Shown in pieces: positions 5,743 through 64,000 of a stretch of DNA of 64,000 nucleotides. The position numbers and the translations under genes are program-made. Under the pieces are notes generated by a model. That model saw only the letters and a list, made by a program, of their open reading frames with translations, did not search any database and was not told the origin of the DNA. The stretch comes from Pisaster brevispinus (lineage: Eukaryota > Echinodermata > Asteroidea > Forcipulatida > Asteriidae), in NCBI GenBank assembly GCA_023634235.1, contig JAMKCF010000080.1, positions 124,001-188,000 of the forward strand, read 5' to 3'. How positions within the stretch are numbered: the stretch's first letter is position 1; every line of letters starts with the position of its first letter.

Positions 5743-8700
5743 TTACTTCTTCTTCTTTCCCTTTTTCTTGCCGGAGCCTTTCTTTCCCTTCTTGCCCTTC
5801 TTCTTCTTCTTCTTGCTGTACGGTCCGATCTGCCTCCTGACCATGATGCCACGCCACCAAGATTGTAACTGGAACAAACAAGGACGAGGTTGGTTTAGTA
5901 GATAGAGTTTGTTATAATCTGCTCATAAACTTGTACAATTATTATGGGTAGATTTATTGTACTACCATCTTCATGAACAGTGGTATAGCTAGACGTTTTA
6001 TTTAATGTTATTTTTATTTATTTATTAATTTATGTAGATATATAATTTTTTATTTTTTACTTGTTTTTTTGGATGGCAATCAGAGCAAAGAAATAATTTT
6101 GGGGAGAGGGCCATTTCATTTATGATTTGTGCAAACAAAACAAACATTTGAGGAGGCTAAGGGGGAGGCAAGGGTTCTGAGCCGGGAGGGGGGCACTCCT
6201 GCCCACTGGACCCCCACCCACCCAGCTGGTCATGCCGTTGTTCATGGATCAGTAACCCTTAAATCCTTGTATCTACATAAACAGCCTATCCTCTTACTCA
6301 TCGCGAATAAAAATATTTTTGTTGAGCACCAAATTATTCCTTTGACACAGCTCATTAGGGGCACAGGGATCCAAAGCATTTCAAAACAAATTGAAAAAAA
6401 AATAAATAAAAATTAAAGAAAGTTTAAAATTTTCCTCTTTTTTTTCCCGTCAGGAAATTGCCGCGTACTCACTTCAGACTATTATCTTTTAGTAGCGAAA
6501 TGCATTCATACTTGAGCGTGTCAAGAAATTTATTTCTATCAATATGTTTGACATTTTCCACTAATTGCTGCTTTCTGAATCCTGTTTCATTTCTGGAAGA
6601 GGAAATTGGTTTTGAATGGAAAGGTGAAAATAAAAAACAACAATCTCTTTTACCAGGCATGAACTATTGAAAATTTTCTTGAGTACAAGGGGCTGACCTT
6701 GATACAAGCTTTAATAGACTTGAAAAAAAAAAAAAAAAAAGATTTTGCTGATTTTTCTGAGGGCCCAAAAAACGGAAATCGGGGCCCAATTTCATAGAGC
6801 TGCTTTAGCAGAAAATATTGTTTAAAATTTTTCTGCTAAGCAGAAATGAGCAGGATACCAGTCATAAATTGTACTTGTGGTATGCTAGTTTGGCTGATAG
6901 CCTTATTCTGGTAAGCATAGTTCTTTTTTGTGCTTAGCTCCTTCTTGTGCTAAGCAGCTCTATGAAATTGGGCCCAGGTCATAAGTAGGAAAAATATCGT
7001 GCCTGCCTTACTTTGACAGTAGACTTGAGTTCCTCAAGTTCCTGATCGCGAAGTCTCCTGACCTTCTCTTTCTCAATTCTGTCTTCAACCACAACCTGCT
7101 CGAAGTCAGTATACTGCCAAGAAAAGAAAAAAACCATCACAATAAACACAAAGTACCTCAGGTAATAATAACAATAATAATATCGGCTGTTTGATAGCGA
7201 AATTCCAGACATGATCATTGCTCTGGCACAAAAACATTATCACCCCTGGGCTTAATCTCACAACGACCTAAGATTGATCTTGAGATGTGTCTCACTCGTA
7301 ACTGCTAAGCAAACTGTGTGATGTCACAATGGAGTTCAATGTGGCAATACTGACAACTGGTCTCAAGATGAATCTTAGTGCTTTGTGAAATCGAAACCCG
7401 GTTCATCACTAGCTTTTTAGTAAGCACATGCATGTACATTTTTTTTAGGGAATACACTTTCCAGGGCCTGGCAACACCTGTGTCCTTGAGCAAGGCACTT
7501 TGTCATAATTGCTTCTCTCCACCCAGGAGTACAAATGGGTACTGGACGAGAGCTGGGGAGTAACCTGTGATGAACTGGCACAAGGTCCGGGGGGAATAGA
7601 TACATTCTCAGCCGTTCAATGCCAAAGAAACCGGATATAAACACCGGCCTGATGAGCCATATTGGCATGGGACAGACTTTACTTTTAACACTTTCCAGGG
7701 GCATTACCTTTTTGGTGAGATCCTGAAGTTTGGCGAGGTCGCTGGCCTTGGACGCCTTCAACACCTCTAGCTGGTGGGTCTTTTCTTCAACGTCTTTGTC
7801 GTACTTCTCCATCCAGTAGTCTACTTTTTCTTCCAGCTCCTGAAAATCAGAAAAACAAAGTTATCTAACACTTGGATTCAGACTGGTAGCAGGTTCAAAT
7901 CCCACTCTTGTAAATTTTCAACCCCAAATTTATCAATTTATCCAGCCAGCTTCCCTGGTGGTTTATTACTTGATATTTCAAATAAAACAGTTGCATCCCC
8001 TTAAGGTGATCCCTCTGCTGCCACTTCCCTAGGTTGTATCGTAAATTTTGGTATGATCCCTGGCTAGGGGTATATGGCATTCACAAGTTGAATGGCTCCT
8101 GAATGCCACCTCCGAAACAAAGGTATTGACAAATAGAGAGACTGTCAACATTAGGTCTGGATAGCTCAGTTGGTAGAGCACTGGCATGTTAATCCGGAGG
8201 TCGCAAGTTCAAGTCCCACTCTAGTCAAACTGTGTTTGTTCAACGCAAAGTCATTTAAAATTTACCCAGTTAGTCTTAGTTCTCTTGATAAAACATCAAA
8301 CTTCTACAAATGAGAACACATTAAGAATTCACAAATTGTTTTAAATGTCCCAACGCAATTCAATAAATGTAATCCGGTACTTACTGCTTGGTGTGCCTTG
8401 AGGTATTGCTCTATTTCCTGATTCACACGAATTTCCTCGTCAATTTTCTTCTTGATGAGCTGTGAATCACAACACAAAACTTGTCATGAATATTTGTGTG
8501 TGTTTGGATTTTCCGGAGTTGGGAAATGTCCATGAGTGATGGACTAGAATTAGTATTAACCCTTACAGTTTACGAAGTATCAAATCTAAAAGGAGGTTCA
8601 GTAACCTTGACGGTAATTGGGATCTCTCTGTCGGGAGAAGTGTTAATATCTGAAGGAGTTCTTTTCCCATTTTAAGATCAGATAAATAGGCTTTGGTTCA

Positions 8701-22247: not shown

Positions 22248-25200
22248 TTACGTCCAGTAGAGTATTTCACTTTGTTCCGGTATGGCAAGTTTCACGAACC
22301 TCGGCCAGAAGTAGCAACTATCGGTTTCAACGTTATAATCGAGAGACGCCAGTATATCTTGAGCTAGACTCTTAGGTATCATGTCTTCCTTAAGTACCCG
22401 GACAACGATCAATTTTCTTCTGATGGACTCGGAGCTGACTCGACTCTTAGCCACGGCGCTTGTGAAGCTATGGTAGGTGTGTTTCAGGTAATCCTCAGAC
22501 GTGATGATCACGATACGAGAGCAGTTGAGGAGACGAAGACGCAGTAGCTTGTTGCGGCTGGACGAGCGGTCGGGTCGCTCCACCTCCGACCACAAGCCGA
22601 TGTTGAGGTGGCTCTCTCGCTCTTGGAGCCTGGAGCGGATCAGCTCAGCAAAGTGGCTGTCGGAGCTGTGGTTGTGAATGAATACATCATGCAAATGCAG
22701 AAATGACCGCTGCTCGTGGTGTGTAGCTGTGGGTTTTTTTTAGTCCAGGATTGAGATTATGGGAAGTGTTGACGATGGGAAGTATATCAGACGACATGCA
22801 GAGAATGAGTTGACATGTAAATTAAAGATGAAGGGAACGTGATGTTAAGATGAAAAGTGCAAGCAGGGTTAGACAATTGGTATAGAAGGTTGATGCAAGG
22901 TGAAAAAAAAAGGGGCAGGAAAGAAAAATTAATTGGAAATACAGGTAGTGTAAATGCATGTCAACGGTTACAAGGGGAATTTTAATTCCGTTTTGAATTT
23001 TAGTTAAGTAGGGGTTTTTTTTGGGGGGGGGATTGGAAGGTAAAGTAGATGAAATTGGAGAAAGCAAAAAACAACAGATGCCACTTAATATACCAAATTG
23101 ATTAAAATTGAGTGAAGATGTTTAGCCTATAATTTCAAATTTTCGACTGGCATAACAGAATTTGCATTGGGCCGGCCAGGCTACACCTAATGTACAATGT
23201 ACAATATTAGTACATTCATGGGAATAATGGGGTGTTAAAATGGACCACTACCACGGTGCTACCCTTTTTGATCTTGCCCACTTAAACCACTGCAACCAAA
23301 TCGAGGCTGGAAGGCGAAATAGTCAGGCCCCATCTGGTTATCAATAAGGCATTTGTGAGTCAGATTATAATAATGTCAGATTGTCTGGGAAAATGACTTT
23401 GAGTCGTCACGAGTCACGAGTGACCGCTAAATACTTTCTCAGACTAGAGACAGTGCCTTGTCCCATGGTTCAGGGCCAATAATTTGTGTACATTTAGTTT
23501 TGTTAGAGACAGTGAACACCAGTACACACTTATATATCAAGGAAGGTAGTGGCCGAGCGGTCAAGTGCACTGGACAACAGAGTCTGGTCAACAGAGTGTG
23601 GGTTCAAGTCCTGGTCATGGGAATTGAACCCAGGCGCCACAGTGGTGAGAGGCAAGCGCTCGCCCCGATTCATGTTTAGCAGCAACTGTCTCGATAGTCT
23701 GATGAGGAATTCAAATTTAAGCGGTAACTTGTGATCAAGCAAGTCATTGTACCTGACACTATTCAAATCTAACTCGCAAATGGCTGACATGCAATCACAC
23801 AGAAGTCGTGCACTTCTGATATTGTTATCCCAGGCTAGAGGGAGGTCTTCCTTTGGTAATTAGTCCCAAAATTAGCGACCATAACAACTGACTTGGTAAG
23901 AAGCACTGCAGCTGTTGATGATGCATAACATTTTGAGAAACGATTCCCTTCTAAGCAATGTGGTTTTAGAGAAAGGAATTCAAACAACTTTTAATCTGAG
24001 AAACATTTCATGCATGAAACGTTTTTCAGATGCATTCCAGTTACGTATTATTCTTCCTGCGTGGACATAACTGCTCCAGATTTTTGGCGATATCTCAAAA
24101 ACGCTACCACCCTTGAAATGAAATGTTCACAGGTTGATTTTATTGTATATACCTACATATAGGATTATAACAACTAATTAACAGTTCGAAAGAGGAAGGG
24201 TAAACTTTGCCTTTAACTTGTTGGTTTGAATTACAAAGTAAGTGGAATTTTATAGTGAAATGATGGGCTCTCTTTGTTCATCAATGAAGGCACCTCTCAT
24301 GTTCACCAATGGTTGAAGTATCTGCGGTGATCATCATTTGAAATTTCCTCAAATAGACCCCTTGCATATGACGTTTCTCTCTCAAAAAGCGCCCTCACTG
24401 AGGCCAAAAGGAGACAGATCATTGGACGATAGCTGTTCTTTGTGTGTAAAAGCGTGCGTGTGACCTCAACGTACCTGTAACGTTTGCGATTTATGCAATG
24501 GGGTCTATTGTTTTATAGTTCTCTAAAGAAATCTAGTTATGCAGTCAGAGTTTTAATTACTTAGGTCGCGTTTGAGTCCAGTCAAAATTTGGAGAACTCG
24601 TCATAGACCAAACAAAGACCACAGGTTACCGAGAGTGAGACTGGATCAACAAAAATGGGACTTCATATAAATTGGATAAAAACGGGCGATTCACATTACA
24701 GCAAGAGCACCACCTAGAGTTACCTCATATTACTTTCGCAGAAGACGCACTTTGCAATGATGATTGTGGCTTGTCGTGGCCGAATGGTGGTTGTGAGAAT
24801 CGGACTCAAGCTCTGGGCCAAATTTCATAGAAGTGCTTTAGCACAAGCAAAAAGCTATAAGCGCAACAAAAACAAGCCAAACAGGATAAGGTTAGCAGCC
24901 AAAGTTCCATGTCACATGCACTATCTTTGACTGGTACCCCGCTGGGTTTTGCTTAGCACAGGTTAGCAGCCAAAGTTCCATGTCACATGCACTATCTTTG
25001 ACTGGTATCCCGCTGGGTTTTGCTTAGCACAAAATTGTTAAGCACAATTTTCTGCTTCAAAGCAACTCTATGAAATTGGGCCCTGGTGTTTCTGATCAGC
25101 GGTGTGTGGGTTAGAGTCCCGATCTGGACACCAATGTCTTGAGCAAGATACTTTATAAAAATTGCTTTGTCCTTCCGATGGGACATTAGGCCGTACATGT

Positions 25201-28200: not shown

Positions 28201-31200
28201 AAGTTAAGCCCACCTTGCGGCGAGCACACTTGTATTTCTGCAAGGGGGGGGGAGGCACTTACTTTGAAATCGCCAGGTGATGAGCATGAGACAGACAACA
28301 CAAACTACCGCTGCACAAATAAGGACCGCTGTCAGTACCAAATCCTCTAGATAAACAAATCACAAGAAGAAAAAATATGTCACAAATGCTTGAGGTCCTT
28401 TGTGTGTAAGGGGGGAGGGGGGAGGGGGCAGTGGGGAAGGGGGGATGGTGGGAGAGAGTAACCTTAATTTTTTCTGAATGGTTAAATGGAACTTGTGGCT
28501 TCCGTTTATCTGTTTAACTGTTTCTGCCGATTCCAATCAGAACTATGAGCCCATCTGCAAAAGGAGCAGATGTCAACACACTTTCAAGGAACAAAAATAG
28601 AGCACTGGAACCCAGTCACAAAACCACAAACCACAGCGAGGCATCCTACAAAGCAAAATGTAGCGCAATCTGTGGGGGACTGAAAATAGTGTATTACGTT
28701 TTGTAGAGGGGTTTAACCCTAACCCCCATTAGGGTCTCTCTAAAAAGCCTGCCAAATACAACAGAATGCAACACAGTTGAAATGAGAACCATGCCAAATG
28801 CAACAAAATGCAACAAGGGATATTGTTGCATTGTGCAGGCATGCTGTCTGGGAAAGGACTGAGCAAGGGTGGTTGCCCTGCTAAATGCAACAGTATGCAC
28901 ATAAGTGTAATGTTTAACTGTTACTATACAGTCTTTTGAATATGATTTGAATTATGATTCTTACCTAATATTACATCATACTTCTCAATACTTTCCCCAT
29001 AAAAAACATTTTGAAATACCCATTATAAGTTGTTCAGATACAATAGAAGCACCCAAACCTATATGAAGTCACTTCACTGCTGAACGCAACAAATTCAGTC
29101 CAAAAATGACATCTGAGTTGACTGCCAAATGCAACTAATGGGGGTTAGGGTTAATGAATTGTATTTGAAGTCAATCGATTTGCTCGAGTTGAAAGAAAAG
29201 ACTTGAATCCTTGGCAAGCTAGCATATCAGGCTGATACGCACAATATGCGGGCTGATACACATGTACAAATATGTGTGAATTTCAGCCAATAAAAAAATA
29301 AAATAAAAATTACACATACAGTCGACTCTCGTTAATACGAGGTCCACAGCACTGGCCCCGTTTTCCTCGTATTATCCGTTTTCTCGTTACGACCGTGCTC
29401 TTATCTTTCGTTTTTTAAGACATAGAAACATGCATGGGACAGTTCGGGACCGGTTAAATACCTCGTATAAACCGGCGTCTCGTATCTTCTGAGCTCGTAT
29501 TAACGAGAGTCGACTGTATATAGACATAAGTATCAAAGCATCAATACCATGGTTTTCAAAACTAATAAAGTTTCAACAGCAGTTTTCTAAACTCACTTCC
29601 ATTGCGATACTCTTTCACTTTCACCACCATTTCTCCAGACCTGACTTTGTAAAAGTAATTCTGGGCGATGCAGACGTAGGTCCCTGCGTCGTCCAGCGTG
29701 GCGTTCCTCACAAAGTACGTGCTGTTTACAGAGCCCGGGATTGGTTTGCTGTCCTTCTCCCACTGGACTTTCGGTGTAGGATATCCAACCACTGAGCAAC
29801 TGAGAGTCAGTGGCGAACCTTTGACCAGATCCGTCAACGTTTTGTTATAGTTGGTAATTTGTACCGGTAGCTTATCTACGAACAAATAATACAGGTGTAT
29901 GATTTTATTATTTTGTAAATTGGGTGGCCGACTAATCGGTGTGAGAACATTTCAAACATAGTAAACACCCCAACTTGGGACAAATATTGACTGCTTCTAG
30001 TGCTATGGTTAAAAAACAATGACTCCTTAGACGATCCTCGGCGCATTCTTTTTTCCCGGCGTGAGTCCGAGGGAAAAATAGATCGCGTGTACGTGCTGCG
30101 CATCGCTCTCAGCCAATGATAGCTCTTCAGATGTGTATGTTTCATCAGCGATGGCGGCCAATGCAAAGAGTCTATATACTCGGTGCTTTTTGAGTCGTGC
30201 ACAGACGAACTGATGTACACACCGAGTATACCTGCAAAGAAACCTTTCCCCATGAAATATGTTAAGTGCATGTCAGGCGTGCGCACTGACAAAATGATGG
30301 AACCTTTTTGTATGGGGCTGACAGTGACGTCATACATATACGCGTTTGTGCATCTGCCTAGTGCAACTCAATGCATTTGCTACAGGCATGGCATATATTT
30401 TTTAAAGCTTTGATCCATAAGTTCAAGCAATAAATTAGCTCTGTTTGAAGTGGGATCGCACCAAAATACTTGCATTTTGACACGTATGTGCTAAGGGCCC
30501 AAACAACGTTTTCAACAAGCGCGCGTGGAAAGTAGTCACTTTTGGGAGCCAATCAGTGTTAATTTTCAGTACATCCCAACCAGGGGCTAATAATAATAAT
30601 AATATATTGTATTTGTATAGCGCCTACTGCAGGCCAGCCTCTAAGCGCTTAACATTCAGTATTTCCTGCAAGGTATTTGGGGCTACGTTTTGAAGTATGA
30701 GACCTACTCCTTTACATAGCACCTTGTAATGGTTTACAAGGTGCTGTGGCGCAATATGCAGCCGATCAAACCAGGAACACCGGGGCGGACCCCTTCTCTT
30801 TTCGATAAGTGCACTGGGTTCTTTTTCGTGCGTTACACAACACACGGGACCAACGGCTTTACGTCCCATCCGAAGGACGAAGCAATCATGGTTAAGTGTC
30901 TTGCTTAAGGACACAGGTGTCACGACCGGGGCTCGAACCCACACTCTGCTGATCAGAAATACCAGAGCTTGAGTCCAGTGATCTTATCCACTCGGCCACG
31001 ACACGCCACGGTAATACTAGGGGCTACTGGTAATAGGTATCGATACGGTGCGCCACCCATGGTAGGGAGGCTCTACCTACAGGTATATATCGTCTTCAAA
31101 CCAAATTCAAGAAATTAAGTGATTGACTAGCCTGAACATCTGACGTCACACTTCGAGGCTTGTAAACAACGCCAGATACTAGCAGGACCCTGCCAGTTTC

Positions 31201-34200
31201 TTCGCATCCATTCACATGGCCGAGATTCGTAGTCTCCCCATAGTACGTGCCACACAGATTCCATTGTGAATAAAACAACCCACGTGCACGCGCCCCGCAG
31301 CAGACGATCCAAAAGTTCCTGCCGGCAGTGTAGCTGACAAACACGTCACTTCGGAGCAGAACAATCATAACACAGATATGGAAAGCTTACGCACCGCACG
31401 TTTATCCAATGAAATAATTGTAAGACCAGTGCCTGTCGGCGGATAAAGACAGTGGACCAGTCTAGGGAGTGACTGATTAATAATAGTGGATCAACCCTGA
31501 AGATTTAGGCGCGTGGTCCATTTAGGGCCGGTTCGGCAACTGTCAAACGGTTGACAAACGATTGAAGTTAGAAACGGTTCGGAAGCATTTGTGAAACGGT
31601 TGGGGGAAAGTTTATTCAATGCTTCAGTGCGCTGAGCTTATCTGGTCCTCCGGAGTCCGAACAAAAGGGATATAATCGGATTACTGTTCATTGTGTTGGG
31701 ATTATAGTTGCAGTTTTTAAAGCTCTGATGGTAGATATGAATTTCAAAACTAAAATGCCTAACGCTTCGTCACTGCGCTTTGTTTTTGCTATTTCTAAAA
31801 TGCTAGCCAAAAGTTACCACACATATTATTTTTAATCATAAAAAACGATAAAGTAAAACCTGAGATCGTAGCTACCTGTTTACGTCATGTATTTTCTGGT
31901 TGGCTTTGCAAGGCGTTGGCAATGCCAAGTGCTCGTCGGGTGTGTACATGTATTTGAACGTTCGTGACCAAGACGATCTCAATTTTCGGTTGATTGTGAA
32001 CAACTAAGAATGTTTCCCAACTGATGTGTATGTTATCATGGAATATATGAATAGGTTGGACGAATTTGGGTGTGATTTGCAATAAAAATTATTTATATGC
32101 AAGATTTTGTCTTTAAACATATAACTGAAACAGATCATCTCAATTTATTAACAGAACATTTATATATACCCTTCCTGTTATTACGTTTTAGTGGACATCG
32201 TTAAAGATGAAGTCCCCTATATATTTTAAGGTTATGATCGGACGACCGTGTTTTTATCATTTTTTTTTTCCTAGAAAACTATAAGTTAATTTGGAAAGCA
32301 CCCGTTTTAGTTTTCTACGACAAAAAGTCCGTTCCAACAGGACAAAACCGAGATTCAATGTATTATTGTTTCACCAATGATTCAAATAATGACGTGGCAT
32401 TGATAGCGAATCCCGAACTTTAAATTGCACAGCAATATATTCAAAGCCGTTTTGGCCAAAAAACTCCATTCATTCATGAATGGAAAGAATAGCTACAACC
32501 TGGGTGTACATGTACATGAACCTACCCAAAACACAACCATTGTTACCAGCATTCCCAGCCGTGTAGGATTAGTTAGGATTAGCGGCGGAAGTGTCAGTGA
32601 TAGCCTGGCATGAGACAACTCCTTTGTTAGGTGTAAACCCCAGTCAAGCAGCACTCCTTTTGTCTGTCACCAGAGTTTAGCCTCAAAAGACTGTCTTTAA
32701 TCCCAGAGAAACGATTGCTTGCCGAAACTAAAATGGTTGGCGCTCTGTAAATGAATCGTTTTGGGCAACCGTTTGACGGTTGCCGAACCGGCCCTAAATG
32801 GACCGCACGCCTTACTCAAACCAAATCGAAGAAAGTGTTTAGGAGTACCTTGAATGTCTATAAACACTTCCACGTGTTCAGGAAGTTTTGGGGTGTATTG
32901 ACCTTCACTGTACGCCACGCAGTAGTACTGACCCAACTGCCTCTTCTCCAGGTTTTCCAGGCTTAGCGTAGATGTCAAGGATGAAGCGTTCTTCATCTTG
33001 CTCTGGTCCATTTTCAGATAGGGGGGATCGGGGGGTGGTGGCCATGGTATCGATGACTCGTAGCAGCTTTTGTGGGTGGAGTTACACCACCAGATCTGCA
33101 GGGCAAACTTTGGCTCTACCTTCAGAGAATAGGGAGGGGACAACAAAAATTAAAAATCAGCCAGAATTGTGGAAAAGATTCATTCAACTCGTCTCTTTTT
33201 GGGAGGTGTTCTGGCAACATACGGTCCCTCATTTTGTGGAGTCAAAAAATGTGGTTCGACAAAATTGCGGACCGTGTTCTTTAATGATATTTCACAAAAA
33301 AACACACAATTTCAAGTTTTTTTTCATGTGAATCATTCATATTCCCAGGGCTCGAATTTGACACTGGACCACCAGCCTGAGGCCAGTGAATTAAGCCTCG
33401 GGCCAGTAAACTCATGGTACGACAAGTCCAGCAGTCTTGTGTTTTTCAATTGAATTTAATAGTCACTGTGAAACATCTTTAACAGAAAAAAAATGAAGTT
33501 CAAATGTTGTTTTTGAGTCTGTTATTTATACAATTCCGTTGAGTATCACAGTATACTAACCCATTAAGACAAATGAGATAGATCTTCTCTTTAGTGCTTG
33601 TTCAAATAAACGCCCTGCGGTCTTGTGAAATTTTAACCCAAAATTCTAGCCCTGTTTCTACTTTAAAAATACCTTTCAAACCATCATGTCGAAATAAACG
33701 CTTTTTAAAGGCCTAAGTGCCCAATCTGAAGGCAATGTGCCCCTTTAAGAGTTTCCTGAATATTGTAACAAACATCAAGATCATTTGGGTTTTGCACAAA
33801 GAAAAATTGACTGAAGCGGGACTTGAACCGACGACCTCCGGATTAACGTACCGGCGCTCTACCAACTGAGCTATCCAGCCCTACACTGTATGTTGGCGGT
33901 CTCCCTATTGTATTAGTCAATATCTTTGTTCGGGGGTGCCAGTCAGAAGCCATTCAAACATCAAGATCATTAAAACAGCAAATAGCAATCACTTATAAGG
34001 AAGGTCACGCATACTAATGCTTTGAGATCAAACTTTGTCTGAGTTCACAGAACCTTTCAGCTTCCTGAAAACTGTACATTAAAGGGCAGGGTGTACTTTC
34101 GGTAATTACTCCAAAAGTTAGTGACCATAAAAAAAACTGACTTGGTAAAGAGCACTGGAGAGCTGTTGATACTATAAAACACTGTTAGAAATGCTACCAT

Positions 34201-49613: not shown

Positions 49614-52600
49614 ATGGACAGACAAGGTAAAGGTGAGACTGTTTATTTTCACATTGTGATTGTATTTTGAACTGGTTCCAGGTTCCTTTATGTCAAGTGT
49701 ACGGCCACCATCCAGTTCATCAAGGGGAGTACATTTTTGCTTGTTATTCCTTTTTCAACTGTGTTTAGTATTAGTATAGTATTAGTATTAGCATTATTTT
49801 ATAGGGTTTTTAAAAATGTATTTCTTAATGATGATAATAGCAGGCACATAATTATTATAGCGGCGTGCCGTTGGAGGGGGGGGGGGGGGGCTTTGGAGTT
49901 CATACAACTCGTCCTTCAGACAACTCGACCGGTCAGACAACTCGACAGCTTGACAACGTCAGTCAGACAACTCGACGGAGTTCCAAGACAAGTCGACGGG
50001 TTATTAAGTTGACGGATGACTAACAATGCACCAGCGACCATGTTCACGAATTTCTTGTATAAATCTTGTATTTCCGTAATTTAAGCGTGAACCTTAAAGA
50101 AATATTCCGTTGGAGCATTTATTGATTACATCTTGCCTTTGCACCGTATACTCTGGCTTTAAAGTTGCCTGTAGATTTAATTCAAATCAACCAATGACTG
50201 GGTGGTAAACACGATTTTAAAATGTTATGGTTTTTACATTTCTAACCGGTCATTTGAAAGATCAATCCAGGGACATCTTTGATGATTGACAGGATTTTCT
50301 TGTTTGTTTTTGTCGTGGAATTTTTTTTAATGACAGGAATGCCATAGGAATGTGACAACAGGGGCGGAGCAGCTCCCCCCCCCCGGAAAATAATTTATAA
50401 ATTTTGGGTGAGGGTGCCTGGGGCACCTAATCGAGAATTTAAGTGGCAATAGCCAAGTGTTCTTTTTCTTATTTCACATTTTGTTTGTTTAAGTTTCAAA
50501 TATATAAAACGAAAAACAAAAGAAAAAAAAACCCAACAACAACAAGAACAATACAAACAAACAAACAAACAAACAAACAAAAAACAAACAAACAAACAAA
50601 CCCAACACTGTGAAAACGACATCAAATTTGGGGTCATATTTCACTGTGAAAACGACAATTACTGGCTCATTATAAGCCGAAAGCTCTCATATTAGCGATT
50701 TAAAAAATTGTATTTATTTATTTATTTATTTATTTATTTATTCATTTATTTAGTTAGTTAGTTAGTTATGTAGTTATGTAGTTATGTAGTCATGTAGTTA
50801 TCTATTTATTTTCTTATTTATTTGATTGCTGATTGCGGTTGTTACGACCAAAACAAATTAAGAACAATGTGTATACGTGATAAAAACGTGGCACTTTCTT
50901 TTCCTGACTCACACAGGCGGACTCAGCCCAAATTTGTACATGGTTGTTACTCCGTGTATGGTTGATACCATCACAAAACATTATACACTGTCTCCGACTG
51001 CTTTGTCAGCTCTACCAATCCTGCATAAAACGCTTTGTTTTCCCTTGCTATCTTGATAGGGCCTACGGTTGCTTATTTCCTTCCCAACTCTATTGTTTTA
51101 TACGGGGGATTTCCACTAATCTATTGCTCAATAATCTGCCACAGCCGGAATTCCCCCGACAAACACATTGATTAGAGCCACACAGCTTGGACTTTCAAGT
51201 GGAGGCACGACCTGTATTATAACCGTTCACATGGAAGAAAACAATAGATTGCACTGTCTGATTTGTGTCAATGATTTTGATATGAAAAAAGGGGACTCGT
51301 CTCAAAACTTGCTCAGCTGCTGTTTTTATTTTATTTTTTTTTTATCTTGAAATATGAGAATATGAGACATATTATTTCACATTTGAACAGCTAGTGATCT
51401 CGCCTGTCGGAGGCCATGGAATCTAAACACTAAGATCACTCTTTATTTTTGTGTATGGGTCCATAATTTCATGGCTCTGCTTAACGCCGTATTCTGCGCT
51501 TGCGATCACTATTCTCCGCTTACTGTGCTGTGCAAGCGCCGAATTTCTGCGCTAGTGGTAAGCGAAGAATGCATAAGTAGTAACGTGGAGTAACAAGCAA
51601 AAGTTCTTTGCTAGCCCGTGAAATATACGCTTGACATATACGTGAGCAAAGAATTCCCTGCTTCCGTAAGCGCCGATTCTTTGGTAAGCCGAGCCATGAA
51701 TTTGGGCCCCGGTTTGTACATAGTTTTTTTGTACGTTATATAGACCATGTAACGTTTATTTACAAAAAGAGATTGTGCAGAGTCCATGGTATTTAGGGCA
51801 GGCGAGATACTACACTGCTGGCCATGGACAATTTTACATTCTGTGACATAATTTCCACCTAATTCAAAAGCTACAAAAAATAACAGCTGAACAAGTTTTG
51901 AGATTTGCAAGTTTTTCTTAATTCATATAAAAATGGATAAAAATGAGAGAGTGTGCAATATAATCATGTATACGATTGTATGTATTTTTTCATTGGGAGC
52001 TAGCTGTGTGTACAAATCGTGCCTGCAGTGAAGTCAATGCGCAGGCTCTGTGGTTCTTCTGTAAACGTGATGTCATAATACACTGGAGCAACCATCCACG
52101 ACTGCACAGTGTACTTTAACCCTAGCTGTACGACATAGGGAACTACATGATACAGCTATAGATACACAACCTAGCTTCAGATAATGTTTAATCAATAACC
52201 AATAACTCACGATACAATTTGTTTTTTATTGGATGGAACAAAACGTTGATCAGACCTACACATTGGAAATGATATTGGTAATTAGCAGTGTGAAGGTAAA
52301 CAAAACCACAAAAACAAACAAACAAACAAACAAACAAACAAACAAACAAATAAGTTTCCCCCTTTTAAAACCAAATTGAGAAGTGACAACTACCATTAAA
52401 AACTTTACTGCATAAATTTATAATATTTGTGTATTTGTTTAAATATGAAACATGTAGCTAACAGAGTAGGGCTCCATTGTGCTCCATAATATGGTATCTT
52501 GTTTACTTTCCGTCGCATATACAATTTTTGGCTTTGTATTGTTTCTTCGTGCCTCGCATTTTTTTATTTTGTTAGAGGCGTTGCATTTTACACGGATAAG

Positions 52601-55600
52601 TACACTTTTGTTTTTTAAATAATTATTTTATAGTAAATTTATACATAATTATGCTGCCGGGATTTTCCAGATGTTTAATGGTGTTTATTGCGGGGGGGGG
52701 GGGGGGGGGGTTATAGACCGTATTGAATAACCCCTTTGTTGCTATGAAAGTTGCCATCTTGTAGGGAAAACCGTATGCGCGTCTAAACGGCCGCGTACAT
52801 CAATGAAGCACGCAGCGTTCCCGGTTTGATTTCTACGGCACATGCACGCACACCATCACGCACACGCTAGACGCCATGTTGTAGGGCAGATATTTGAATG
52901 GTGACGTCATATTCAATACGGTCTATAGACTGTGCAAGTCTCGCGCGTATTCGAACATTGGGATCCGTTAAAGCGCGTGAGTTTGTTTCTTTAACGCGTT
53001 AAAGCAATGTACGTGGGACCACAGTGGTCCCAAAAATGTTCGAGTACGCGCGAGACTTGCACGGTCTATTGTGACAAGAAATTTAAGTAAAACTTTGAAC
53101 GACCCGGTCTATTTTCCCGTCCTTTCTTTTCCCTCGCTTTTGGTTTAGTTGGGGGAGGGGGGAAATTGAATTAAAAAAATAATTTTCATGATTACCCCCT
53201 TTTGAATCTAGGGATTGGATCCAGTGACTGTCTTCACTGAAACATCTTTTCGTCCACAATAGTCTCCGTGGGAAATGGTCTTAAAATAGATAACAAGGAA
53301 GATTGAAGAAATCCACTTTTCAATTTAAATTGGTAAACCCATCCATCTATAGAATTAAACGGTAAAAAAACCTGTTTCTACACGCGCTTCTCTACTCTAG
53401 TTGTCATGTTTTACTAGAGCTCTGGCATTATGTAGGTCGGGCCGTATCCGAATTGGCGTTTGCGGCTACGGCTACGGCTGGGACCGCCGCGCCATCATGC
53501 GTTAAAGCATTTAGAGGACGTCCTTAGCAACACCCTTAGCAACAGTCGTAGCCGTAGCTTTAACCGCCAATTCGGATACGGCTTGAGCTAAGCTTTAACA
53601 TCATTGCAAATCCACGTCGATTAAAATAGTTCATGCACTTACAGTAGGCTAGGACCATTCAATTTTACTGATGGGGGCCAGCTCTACGATCTACCACCAT
53701 TGATTAACACAATCGCAAACCATACGGGTGACCGAAAGATAACCGATACACGGATAAGATTAAATGAGTAAGAACATTCCTGAAATGTAAGGGCCATGCC
53801 ACACGAGGCAATTTACAGGCAACCAGTTCCAGGCAATCTCCATGAAAAAAAGACATTCACATTTCAATGTTAAGACATTGTTTGAAAAATTACTCCTGTG
53901 CTACCAAAGTGGTCCTGTAGCATGCGCTACAGTTGGTTGCCTCCAAGTTGCCTGTAAAAGTTGCCTCGTGTGACAAGGCCCTTACTTGCAGGTCTGGGTT
54001 CCCATTAAGTTATAGACCCAGAATCTCTCAGATGTTACACTTAAAGGAGGGTTACAGACTCTTTGCATCACAGACAGAAACAAAATAATTCAGGTTCTGA
54101 CACATGATCTGGACTATAGTTCTTTCTTCCTCTGGTGACTCAAGAAAATTTGAAGGCTTAAGAATATTTTTGTACAATTCCATGAAAAGTCTCCGAGTCG
54201 ACTGCCTGCTGATATAAAAGTTATTGTTGCATTGACGTCATGAAAATGTGTATCTGGTCTATTTTTCTTTGGTTGTCAGAAATGGGTGAAGATTTCTCCC
54301 TCGAGATCCTTTCCAGCCGGCTCGGTGAAGCCTGGCCGTCCCTCGCCACCCAGCTTGGTTTTGATGACGCTGAATGTCAAAGCATCATTGTAGCGTACGA
54401 GGGTCGGATCAGCAGGCAGGCCCATTACATGCTGCAAGCCTGGATTGAACGACATGGGGGTGTTATCCAGATGTCAACCCTGATCGAAGCCTTGAAAGAG
54501 ATCAAACGGCCAGATTTGCTCAGGGAGCTAGGTAAGGAACCCTTAAGTGAGCACAGGTGACACAAAATCGTAGCACACTATAACTATCTTCACTGTTTTC
54601 TCCAAAGTGCAATGCCCTGGGGGAGTCAAAGTCTTAGATATCCTTGACTGGACCATTCCACATACCTAAAACGGGATCAGGTCCAAGAGTTGTGTAGTTT
54701 TTGTTTTTTTGAGGGCCTGACAAATATTTTTTTTACTCATAACTTCGTGTACAAAAATGCAAAATTGTGGAGCCATCTGTTCTTTATAGCAGGCTTCCAG
54801 ATGGTTTGCTAACAAACTGTGCTAGGTTCCGAGGTTTCCAACACCCACCCACTGCCAATCAAACCCTTTGGTTTACTAGGGTGCCAGTAACCAGTGGGAC
54901 CTTCCTGCATGTTTGTATTTCCTGGGTTATCCCTGCACTTAACAACAAAACCCAGAAAGAAACCAATATTGAAAGGGAGGATTGAGCTATGAACTTCACA
55001 CTGTCGATGAATTTCACAAAAAAGCATTACAATAGAGTCATTGAAATACGGTAGAGTCTTCTGAGCTTTGTCCAGCCGACGTCTTGTAATGCTAGATAGA
55101 TGAACATAATGATGATGATGATGATAAAGACATCACACGAATTGCCCACAGGTGACGCTCCTTGGTCTAGTGTTTGCTTTACCGTTTGGACATTACGGTT
55201 TCAATATTAGTGTTATTTTTCACAAAATGAAGTACTGTACTTTGAGGAGAACAACGTAATTGAAAAAACAAAACAACAACACCACTTTAACTAGATAACA
55301 AATACCACTTGTATTATGTACACTGTACACAGTTACAGATATATCTCTTACCATTTCTAGGTGTAGAAGTTCTGGACAACGAGACTATAAAAAAGGTAGT
55401 ACGAAAAGTAAAAGAATCATGGCCGGAGCTGGCCCTCTACCTCGGTTTCGACATTGAAGACTGCCGGAGTATTATCACAAGCTTCCCGGGAACAAGTGAG
55501 CGTGCAGGTCAGATGCTGGCAAACTGGAGGCAGAAGTTCAACGGGGCTAACCCACTAGAGACCTTGTCAAAAGCTCTCCAAGCAATAGACCCTGAACTTG

Positions 55601-57396
55601 CCAATGTAATTGGTAAGTCACATAATATAATTTGAATCAAGTATTGGTTTACACATGGGCTTGCTTCTTCAATTGTCAGAACCTTTAGATTTGTAGACTC
55701 TCTTCTGATTCACTTGGTTGTGACATGCCATTATTAAACCTCTGAACTTTTTCTTGTTGGGTCTTTGGTAGTTTTGATAACTGGAGTTCTGTTTTGCAAC
55801 TTGTGTTTTGCAGGGCCGTTGCAACGAATCCCGTCATGCACTGGTTGCGGCAACAGCGATCCTGTCAAGTTTAGACGTTACTTCTCCCAGGACGGTCAGT
55901 CTCGACTCCTCGGGATCTGCTGCACCAAATGTGGTCAGGAGTGGCTCCAAGATGGATTCCTATTACATCCAGACACTGACAGGTCACGTCCGAGGGTCAG
56001 ACTTTGCGGAGTTGTTCTCAAGAAACAGCTCAAGGTGACCGTGGAAAAGAATCCAGCATTTCAGGTCAAGAGTTCTCGTAAGAAAATCGACTTAGATCAT
56101 GCTTTGGATGTCCTGAAGATCGGCGATCACGTCACCTGGCAGCGTCCATATATCCTTTGGCATCATGCCATAGTTTCCGGTGTCGATAAAATAACTGGGC
56201 GTCTTAAGGTGCTCCACTGGACCAAGATAGGATCGGCATGCGGTACAACACAGATAATGGAAGAAGACTTACGTTTGGGTGATCAGTCGGGTGATCTGTA
56301 TCGAATCGAGTACAGGGAAGAGATGACCAAGGCCAATCCCGTAGAGCTCGTCATTGCCCGTGCCAAATCCAGATTAGGTGACACTGGGTACCAGCTTTTG
56401 GGTGACAACTGCGAGGCATTTGCTTCTTACTGTAAAATTGGAGTTGTGGAGAGCTGCCAGGCCGTGTGGTTCTACAACAAGGTTAAAACGGTCGTGAATG
56501 AAACGCTGGTAAACACATTTAAGAGTTTTGCCAAGGGTGGTTGTGTCGTTGCTAAAGAGTATGTCAAGGCTGGTTCCAAAGCGTTCTTGCAGCAGGTCGG
56601 GACTGTTTCTGTAGAAGAGGGGTTGAAGGCAGCGGGAGAAGTTGGTGTTGCAGAGTCGTTTGAGAGGCTCGCCATGGGCACTGATGTAGTAGGAGCTGGT
56701 ATCGTGATTGTCATTGAAGGTGTCGCCTGCGTCTGGAATCTCGGGGAGTATTACCAAAAGAGAAAACAAGGTAACTTGTCATTGGAAGAGTTCGTAAAAA
56801 CTGCTGCGCAGCGTGTGATGGAAGCAATATGCGGAGCAGGCCTGGCCATTTCGCTTGGCTTAGGAGGGCAGGCTGCAGGGGCTGCAATGGGGGCCGCGGC
56901 AGGTACGTTTATTCTCCCTGGGCTAGGAACGGCAGTTGGTGGGTTCATTGGAAGTATTGTTGGGGGTGTAGTCGGTTCACTTGTTGGCAGAGCCTTTGGT
57001 TCATTCATAGGAGCCCCCATAGGCCGCTGTCTCGCCAGACAAATTGGTACGGACGACAGGGCTGTGTGCATAGAAGACCTGCGACCCGGGGACCAGATTG
57101 TTTCTTACGGAAACCTCCTTCATCCACGACATCATGCTATAGTCGTCTCCCGCACTCAAGGTAAGAGTAAAGTCACGGTTGTCCACAGTACGTACAGCAA
57201 TGGTGTGATCGAAGAGGAGGTTGATTTCATCGAACCCGTGTATAAAGTGATCTACCAAGAGCAAATCTGTTTCCCACCTGAGGAGGTGATCGAAAGAGCC
57301 AGATCCAAGATCGTAGATGATGCGTACACGTACTCCTTAGTATGGAATAACTGCAAGCACTTCGCCCAATGGTGCAAGCTGAAGAAGTATCGATGA
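49614..57396 (+). CDS. Death-death-LRAT-glycine zipper-LRAT protein (undescribed architecture)
   Basis: I know no named family with this layout. Exons: 49614-49626 (tentative; donor at 49633 also fits), 54280-54531, 55361-55612, 55814-57396; phases agree, giving about 699 aa. Death domain 1 is about residues 10-89 (EAWPSLATQLGF, MLQAWIERHG). Death domain 2 is about 91-173 (ESWPELALYLGF, MLANWRQKF). Cysteines 181/184 and 208/212 (CTGC, CTKC) could bind zinc. LRAT domain 1 (276-382) has GDHV, His290, His307 and Cys372 in NCEAF. Next come a TM-like stretch (464-480) and a glycine-rich GxxxG region (about 513-580). LRAT domain 2 (598-695) has GDQI, His613, His630 and Cys686 in NCKHF. LRAT/PLAAT enzymes are thiol acyltransferases or phospholipases on membrane lipids; death domains assemble signalling platforms. 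A membrane-acting effector controlled by death-fold assembly is my inference. The first exon is the weakest part. Confidence 0.8.
49905..50000. repeat. Degenerate CAGACAACTCGAC repeat
   Basis: Four to five imperfect copies of CAGACAACTCGAC, following a G16-type run near 49876. Confidence 0.5.
50552..50800. repeat. Microsatellites (CAAA)n and (TTTA)n/(GTTA)n
   Basis: (CAAA)n at about 50552-50601 and (TTTA)n grading into TAGT/TATG repeats at 50711-50800. Other simple runs in the window: (AAAC)n at 52312-52352 and (CAAA)n at 60374-60405. Confidence 0.75.
51376..52295 (+). repeat. Long dispersed repeat, copy 1 (death-LRAT intron 1)
   Basis: Matches 62692-63322 in the same orientation. Shared segments: CATTTGAACAGCTAGTG, TCTCGCCTG, GCAGGCGAGATACTACACTG, ATAACAGCT(G/T)AACAAGTTTTGAG, CTGTAAACGTGATGTCA, CATCCACGACT, ACCATAACTCAC-type end. 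A MITE B copy (51457-51709) has inserted into this copy. Confidence 0.6.
51457..51709. mobile_element. MITE family B, copy nested in the long repeat
   Basis: GGGTCCATAATTTCATGGCTCTGC at the left and CGAGCCATGAATTTGGGCCC at the right, with AGCGCCGATTCTTTG and CTTCCGTAAGC inside. Confidence 0.65.
52714..53068. mobile_element. Two abutting TIR elements with TAGAC ends
   Basis: Element 1 (52714-52925) has TAGACCGTATTGAATA and TATTCAATACGGTCTA ends with TA on both sides. Element 2 (52926-53068) has TAGACTGTGCAAGTCTCGCG and CGCGAGACTTGCACGGTCTA ends. They touch at one TA. A G20 run lies just before them. Confidence 0.65.
53436..53586. repeat. Inverted repeat (GCCGTATCCGAATTGGCG ends)
   Basis: GCCGTATCCGAATTGGCG at the left and CGCCAATTCGGATACGGC at the right are nearly perfect inverted copies. 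GGCTACGGCTACGGCT and GTCGTAGCCGTAGC lie inside. Confidence 0.6.
53788..53994. mobile_element. MITE family J, copy 2 (death-LRAT intron 1)
   Basis: TAAGGGCCATGCCACACGAGG and CCTCGTGTGACAAGGCCCTTA ends. The inner CAGGCAACCAGTTCCAGGCAA matches 9894-10087 in reverse. Confidence 0.7.
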
Positions 57397-63552: not shown

Positions 63553-64000
63553 CAAAATTCCCCCGACCTGCTGTGATCTCTTCACTGGCTGCCAGTACGA
63601 GAAAGAATCAAATACAAAATCCTTCTGTATGTTCACAAATGTCTTCATGGTCAAGCACCAAAATACCTCACAGAAAACTTAATCCTCTACAATACTGGGC
63701 CCAATTTCATAGAGCTGCTTAAGCAGAAAATGTTGCTTAACAATTGTCTGCTAAGCAGAAATGAGCAGGACACCAGTCGCAAATTGTACAAGTGACATGG
63801 TAGTTTGGCTGGTAACCATAATCTAGTTAGCATTATTTTGTAGTGCTTAGCTACTTTTTGTGCTTAAGCAGCTCTATGAAATTGGGCCCTGGTCATTCTG
63901 AAGACCGTAGAAGGCTCCGCTCTGCGTCTGACGTCACACGCTTGGTTGTTCCTTGCTCCTACAAAAAGGCTGGAGACAAGTTATTCTTCGATGCAGCTCC
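63553..64000 (+). pseudogene. LINE reverse transcriptase C-terminal fragment, split by MITE A, runs off the window
   Basis: Before the MITE: LHWLPVRERIKYKILLYVHK and CLHGQAPKYL, the standard motif after the RT domain of many CR1/L2/Jockey-type LINEs. After it (from about 63898): DRRRLRSASDVTRLVVP and KAGDKLFFDAAP. These two parts are neighbours in intact elements, so the MITE interrupts them. Confidence 0.7.
63697..63889. mobile_element. MITE family A, best-preserved copy, nested in a LINE
   Basis: Ends GGGCCCAATTTCATAGAGCTG and CAGCTCTATGAAATTGGGCCC are perfect inverted repeats. The interior has CTTAAGCAGAAAATG and TAAGCAGAAATGAGCAGG. Confidence 0.8.

Follow-up and report, generated by a model that had tools for sequence, protein, structure and literature searches.

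The genome of the sea star Pisaster brevispinus holds a gene whose predicted protein joins two death domains to a Cys4 motif, an LRAT domain, a glycine zipper and a second LRAT domain, in that order. The gene lies in a stretch of 64,000 nucleotides (the window) that covers positions 124,001 to 188,000 of contig JAMKCF010000080.1 (C80:124001-188000); searches within the species covered 550 Mb of genome. The well-supported gene model spans 54282-57396 of the window and predicts 694 amino acids. At the level of sequence the layout is confirmed as real. As to function, we tentatively favor – at somewhat less than even confidence – a sea-star-specific, signal-gated membrane lipid enzyme: PLAAT-like, membrane-anchored, clustered through death-fold assembly and acting in immunity or cell death. 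The features of the gene are as follows.

49614..49626, plus strand: possible 5' mini-exon (MDRQ and a phase-1 G; GT donor and phase fit; weakly supported); an alternative donor would place its end at 49632 (exon length 13-19 nucleotides)
54280..54531, plus strand: exon with Death domain 1 (252 nucleotides, AG/GT, phase 1-1; ATG at 54282; Pfam Death, E-value 3.9e-12)
55361..55612, plus strand: exon with Death domain 2 (252 nucleotides, AG/GT, phase 1-1; Pfam Death, E-value 6.3e-9)
55814..57396, plus strand: single exon with Cys4, LRAT1, glycine zipper, LRAT2 and stop codon (open frame of 552 amino acids from stop to stop; Pfam LRAT, E-value 3.9e-23, two stretches)
55837..55941, plus strand: Cys4 motif, C-x2-C ... 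C-x2-C, a possible zinc knuckle (CTGC at residues 176-179, CTKC at 204-207)
56113..56451, plus strand: LRAT domain 1 (His284, His302, Cys367 in the 694-residue numbering)
56668..56745, plus strand: hydrophobic stretch LAMGTDVVGAGIVIVIEGVACVWNLG (residues 453-478; 19-residue hydropathy peak 2.08)
56821..57024, plus strand: glycine-zipper segment (residues 504-571; 29% Gly)
57043..57381, plus strand: LRAT domain 2 (His607, His625, Cys681 in the 694-residue numbering)

All splice borders of the three exons are AG/GT and each junction is in phase 1; a search of the species' own genome recovered the Death domain 1 exon at C80:178303-178530. An earlier note on this DNA, made from the letters alone, had proposed one spliced frame of about 699 amino acids. 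The order and phases of the exons fit that proposal, and 694 of the residues are well supported; the first mini-exon, which would add approximately five, is the weak part and is kept as a possible exon. The start of Asterias amurensis protein P0002 (MEDQD-MGEDFS) resembles that of the window protein read with the mini-exon (MDRQE-MGEDFS); P0001, from the same species, starts at the exon-2 ATG and lacks the mini-exon residues. A mini-exon-like stretch was not found upstream of the tandem copy of the gene (described below), between the two genes or in locus L009.

The Pfam scan was run on the stop-to-stop frames holding the exons, with matches listed at E-values up to 1. Both death folds recognized by the earlier note exceed the cut-off of the Death family (PF00531; 46.6 and 36.3 bits, cut-off 22.6), and LRAT (PF04970) is matched twice at 82.5 bits in all (cut-off 24.3). 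No other family exceeds its cut-off in the LRAT exon: PPPDE peptidase (PF05903) reaches 19 bits against 29.2. Kinase, caspase-protease, leucine-rich-repeat and ankyrin-repeat families gave no match in the three frames scanned. Matches below cut-off to DUF1287, Peptidase_C97, bDLD3, Dredd_N and PH_PHS1, as well as to a bacterial membrane-insertion domain (E-value 0.17), were set aside as chance or distant fold likeness. Among solved structures, Death domain 1 finds PIDD (6.6e-7), ankyrin-2 (2.1e-6), RIPK1 (2.2e-5) and also THO complex subunit 1; the LRAT match to HRASLS2 (1.4e-4) covers the Cys half only. The His-His-Cys sets that the earlier note had described are complete in both LRAT domains, as assigned by alignment; the catalytic histidines, chosen between neighbors by alignment to the PLAAT motif, are presumably those given above. 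The two Cys regions read NCEAF and NCKHF, compared to NCEHF in PLAATs: Asn-Cys and Phe are kept and one position is altered in each. The pair of CxxC motifs is likewise present, and its cysteines are conserved across the family alignment (Cys in 68, 67, 69 and 69 of 75 rows, with four to six rows gapped per position), the spacing of the first pair being variable (C-x4-C in P0001 and P0002). No Pfam zinc family was listed for the window frames at E-values up to 1.

The hydrophobic GxxxG segment reported between the LRAT domains also holds up: residues 504-571 contain 11 GxxxG pairs compared to a shuffle mean of 5.3 (11 was reached by 18 of 10,000 shuffles), and the hydropathy peak lies nearby. 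The excess is family-wide. In all 67 members whose segment was located by the script rule, the observed count was equaled or exceeded by no more than 25 of 500 shuffles; the other eight of the 75 alignment rows were left out of this test (segment not located or too short). The Pfam glycine zipper (PF13488) stays below its cut-off in the window protein (16.8 vs 25 bits). Because 29 of the 53 proteins returned by one search for relatives carry a precomputed C19orf12 label (PF20721), membership of that family was tested, and it was rejected: the window protein has no match at E-values up to 1, and the likeness consists of zipper columns alone. When 10 homologues were scanned with PF20721, five matched and one (P0063) passed the cut-off, at 30.4 vs 30. 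Aligned by hhalign to C19orf12 of the same genome, three sets of family middle segments gave 23, 21 and 36 columns, all of them zipper; the real score was reached by none of 60 shuffles in each set, which is no proof of common descent, since shuffling destroys any zipper. C19orf12 and Drosophila Nazo thus have the glycine zipper in common with the window protein (21-36 aligned columns) and nothing further aligned; since the likeness is confined to the zipper, nothing is built here on kinship with C19orf12.

The full domain order is predicted in proteins of three other sea-star species: A. amurensis (P0001 and P0002), Acanthaster planci (P0004) and Patiria miniata (P0006). In these four proteins the boundary between the death-domain part and the Cys4 part falls at one and the same alignment position, and the two from A. 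amurensis are the nearest to the window protein (83% and 79% identity over 100% of the length). Domains were counted by our own Pfam scan in P0001, P0005 and P0018; the domain labels of other species' proteins are precomputed. In P0005 (A. planci) and P0018 (P. miniata) there are four Death domains ahead of the same core – the segment from Cys4 to the second LRAT domain. P0018 also scores above cut-off for Bacterial Death-like domain 3 (30.6 vs 27.1 bits). Genome-wide there are at least 98 Death-domain matches and at least 13 LRAT matches; comparison by eye shows that, among the matches listed, the only Death matches near any LRAT match are four on C80, two per gene. Because the order recurs in A. 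amurensis, A. planci, P. miniata and the tandem copy, the layout is not due to chance. That a death-domain gene and an LRAT gene, in truth separate, were fused by faulty gene models is barely credible. The joins in the other species are predictions in database proteins, but the same join is predicted in all three species, the exons are phase-1 symmetric and the tandem copy has the same layout. Moreover, P0008, which is 90-93% identical to the C2 paralogue, crosses the corresponding exon join in one frame of 602 amino acids (on a 3,940-base contig that may or may not be complementary DNA).

The tandem copy lies at C80:190-193 kb, has the same three exons and is 94% identical over 3.3 kb; its large exon occupies 5965-7547 of locus L009 (C80:191965-193547). 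Two further paralogues, on C2 and C4, consist of the core plus, upstream of it, an exon akin to Death domain 2 (36.5% and 41% identity; E-values 6e-10 and 1e-9), which is not among the Pfam Death matches listed for the genome. Ratios of nonsynonymous to synonymous substitution rates (dN/dS) between the window core and the C2 and C4 cores are 0.21 and 0.19, with dS, at 1.6-1.7, saturating. Beyond its tandem counterpart, the best genome matches of Death domain 1 are Death domain 2 of the same gene (40% identity over the matched part) and Death domain 2 of the copy (36%), followed by distant domains, so the pair most likely arose by duplication.

A further question concerns the distribution of the core and the origin of the death domains. 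Three protein searches, each scoring the 8,000 candidates with the most shared words, gave 74 relatives (proteins outside these could change the taxonomic picture), and together with the window protein these make the family alignment of 75 sequences, five of them without an N-terminus. Among the relatives found, the core occurs in a sea anemone (Actinia), bivalves (Pecten, Mya, Dreissena) and a brittle star (Amphiura); nine proteins from named species share 36-41% identity with the window core across 90-99% of its length, and the search listings label core-family proteins as uncharacterized or hypothetical. An N-terminal extension – more than 120 residues before the third Cys of the zinc motif – is present in nine of the 75 rows, with none outside the sea-star clade among these rows (five lacking an N-terminus). 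Death domains are recognized in seven of the nine (the window protein, P0001, P0002, P0004, P0005, P0006 and P0018). In a midpoint-rooted tree of 71 cores (four rows of fewer than 400 residues were left out), all nine fall within one 12-row sea-star group with support of 100/100. The remaining three members of the group are P0003 and P0007, which have no N-terminus, and P0011 (P. miniata), which has no Death domains, either through its gene model or through loss. Taken strictly, the extension label requires four changes on the tree; the starred branches make at least two unavoidable, and a single change is found in none of 200 bootstrap trees. We read this history as one gain combined with truncated or lost N-termini. 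On this tree and alignment the core is an old animal family and the death domains are a sea-star addition.

In LRAT1 all 73 ungapped rows have the first His and all 75 rows the Cys; at the second His position there is His in 66 rows, Gln in five, Ser in one and Glu in one. Of the 74 rows not gapped at the His columns of LRAT2, 61 show His..His..Cys, among them all nine extended rows, and the first His and the Cys of both domains are kept in 9/9 extended members. Thirteen rows (P0012-P0014, P0019-P0021, P0026, P0029, P0031, P0033, P0061, P0070 and P0074) have Cys and Arg at the two LRAT2 His positions, always together, and keep the Cys at the catalytic position in 12 of 12 ungapped cases; this would mean either that the two residues were lost together or that the active site has changed. 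P0027 has three LRAT stretches, of which two follow the glycine segment.

The mechanism that we propose would run as follows: the glycine zipper would be inserted in a membrane or lie along it, and there both LRAT domains would act as PLAAT-type phospholipase A/acyltransferases; the Death domains would join a death-fold assembly, formed either homotypically or with a receptor or adaptor acting upstream; and assembly would cluster the enzyme and so switch on local lipid cleavage. The outcome could be damage to a membrane or organelle, or removal of a pathogen's membrane niche, in an immune or cell-death response. The suggestion of the earlier note that death domains would place a lipid-modifying enzyme on a membrane is partly supported, in that the anatomy agrees with it and an engineered system provides a precedent. 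PLAAT enzymes are described as cleaving membrane phospholipids and transferring acyl chains, with N-acyl-phosphatidylethanolamine and lysophospholipid among the products (PMC7603386). Recruitment of PLAAT3 to mitochondria by induced dimerization is described as causing fragmentation and swelling, the Cys-113 mutant being without effect, and a recruited tool made from a PLAAT truncate as also deforming mitochondria and lowering their membrane potential (PMC9338259); the organelle tool described in PMC12017856 is Bax, not PLAAT. A protein with its own assembly module, a membrane segment and two intact LRAT domains would be well built for the same effect under death-domain control. As regards immunity, PLAAT4 is described as interferon-induced and as restricting hepatitis A virus and type III Toxoplasma, reportedly via its acyltransferase activity (PMC10102619), and an amphioxus gene named LRAT, which may or may not be related to the sea-star family, is given among the 15 genes most induced by poly(I:C) (log2 11.4; PMC5752451). 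Carried further, the proposal would make the protein a death-fold-triggered executioner unlike gasdermin, MLKL or Bax: a clustered, glycine-zipper-anchored tandem phospholipase that degrades membrane enzymatically, serving sea stars as an effector of cell death or antimicrobial defense and derived from an old animal family of lipid enzymes that has no name. We consider this stronger form doubtful.

Several observations weigh against a gated membrane enzyme of this kind. The extended N-termini of P0008 and P0022 are not recognized as Death by Pfam, and two of the nine extended members (P0006 and P0008) have Gln in place of the second His of LRAT1. The large exon of the tandem copy has one in-frame stop (an allele, decay or an assembly error are possible), and dN/dS between this copy and the window copy is 0.60 overall (693 codons). 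By part it is 0.23 for Death 1, 1.76 for Death 2, 0.47 for LRAT1, 0.67 for the middle and 0.94 for LRAT2, with zero synonymous changes in the Cys4 part; changes per part are few, so the only reading drawn is that constraint between the two copies is weak. Between the C2 and C4 paralogues dN/dS is 0.76. Finally, the core occurs without death domains in other phyla, and so its basic role may be something other than cell death.

This last point leads to other functions. Lipid signaling or remodeling, rather than destruction, is a serious rival to membrane damage, if on the whole a rather unlikely one: the death domains would recruit the enzyme to a hub of receptors or adaptors, and N-acyl or lysophospholipid messengers would be made there or a membrane remodeled. 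Some proteins with death domains are not known to kill cells, and Death domain 1 matches structures of ankyrins and of THO complex subunit 1 as well as PIDD and RIPK1; PLAATs, moreover, are described as making N-acyl-phosphatidylethanolamine and lysophospholipid (PMC7603386). It is improbable that the LRAT-fold domains act instead on proteins, by thiol acyl transfer or in a peptidase-like manner, with the Death domains recruiting the substrate. Sub-threshold PPPDE-peptidase matches do recur, mostly at the catalytic-Cys region, and the LRAT fold is assigned to the NlpC/P60 superfamily (PMC10102619), but in the LRAT exon LRAT alone passes its cut-off (82.5 vs 24.3 bits, compared to 19 vs 29.2 for PPPDE). 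The same superfamily kinship is all that speaks for an antibacterial peptidoglycan hydrolase or another NlpC/P60-fold use, which we regard as very improbable: the Pfam match is to LRAT, no NlpC/P60 family is listed at E-values up to 1 and a hydrophobic segment sits between the LRAT domains.

The protein can be compared with several known systems. With PLAAT/HRASLS and LRAT enzymes it has in common LRAT above cut-off, His-His-Cys and an Asn-Cys region that aligns with the HRASLS2 and PLAAT3 (group XVI phospholipase) structures. Vertebrate PLAATs consist of a single enzyme domain with a C-terminal membrane anchor, whereas the window protein has two LRAT domains, an internal hydrophobic segment, NCEAF/NCKHF in place of NCEHF, and N-terminal Death domains plus Cys4; since there are two domains, with hydrophobic segments between them, it is not filed as a PLAAT orthologue. 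The Death family is common to PIDD1, RIPK1, FADD and ankyrins, from which the window protein differs by the joined lipid-enzyme core. The whole core is common to the animal family found in Actinia, Pecten, Mya, Dreissena and Amphiura, to which the sea-star clade adds the N-terminal extension. The engineered PLAAT organelle tools, as described in PMC9338259, likewise use a PLAAT enzyme that acts through recruitment by a dimerizing module; theirs is a man-made inducible heterodimer, whereas the sea-star counterparts would be natural Death domains.

The earlier note could name no described protein with this layout, and our survey of open-licence papers (subscription papers and supplements being outside its scope) gave none: no paper was found on the combination of LRAT and Death, on its restriction to sea stars or on the tandem-LRAT family, nor one holding both the LRAT domain and death domain terms, or LRAT together with echinoderm innate immunity. 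Where a listing was long, this covers its best entries: among the best 15 of 10,458 papers, three mentioned lecithin retinol acyltransferase as well as a death domain, and among the best 15 of 35,119, on LRAT proteins in corals, the LRAT term was absent from all. One further paper dealt with light sensing in a sea cucumber. The terms LRAT, lecithin, phospholipase and acyltransferase were not found in the main text of the amphioxus domain-shuffling paper PMC2575513, nor LRAT, NlpC, lecithin and acyltransferase in the available text of the bacterial death-domain paper PMC8195603. The single domains are known; of their combination, no description was found in these papers.

Elsewhere in the window, three minus-strand frames could be exons of one immunoglobulin-TIR receptor (interleukin-1-receptor-like).

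22248-22739, minus strand: TIR_2 (7.7e-6, just below cut-off)
29562-29951, minus strand: immunoglobulin (2.1e-15)
32697-33149, minus strand: immunoglobulin, very weak (0.064)

At 63577-64000, overlapping locus L009, frames resemble the 3' end of a non-long-terminal-repeat retrotransposon reverse transcriptase.

What emerges from the data is a broad tandem-LRAT family, so far without a name, that spans cnidarians, bivalves and echinoderms and has a function open to test. If the proposed mechanism is true, sea stars would have evolved a direct wire from death-domain signaling to the enzymatic destruction of membranes, with neither a caspase nor a pore-forming protein in between; animal cell death would thereby gain another mechanism of execution, and the engineered PLAAT organelle tools would have a counterpart in nature.

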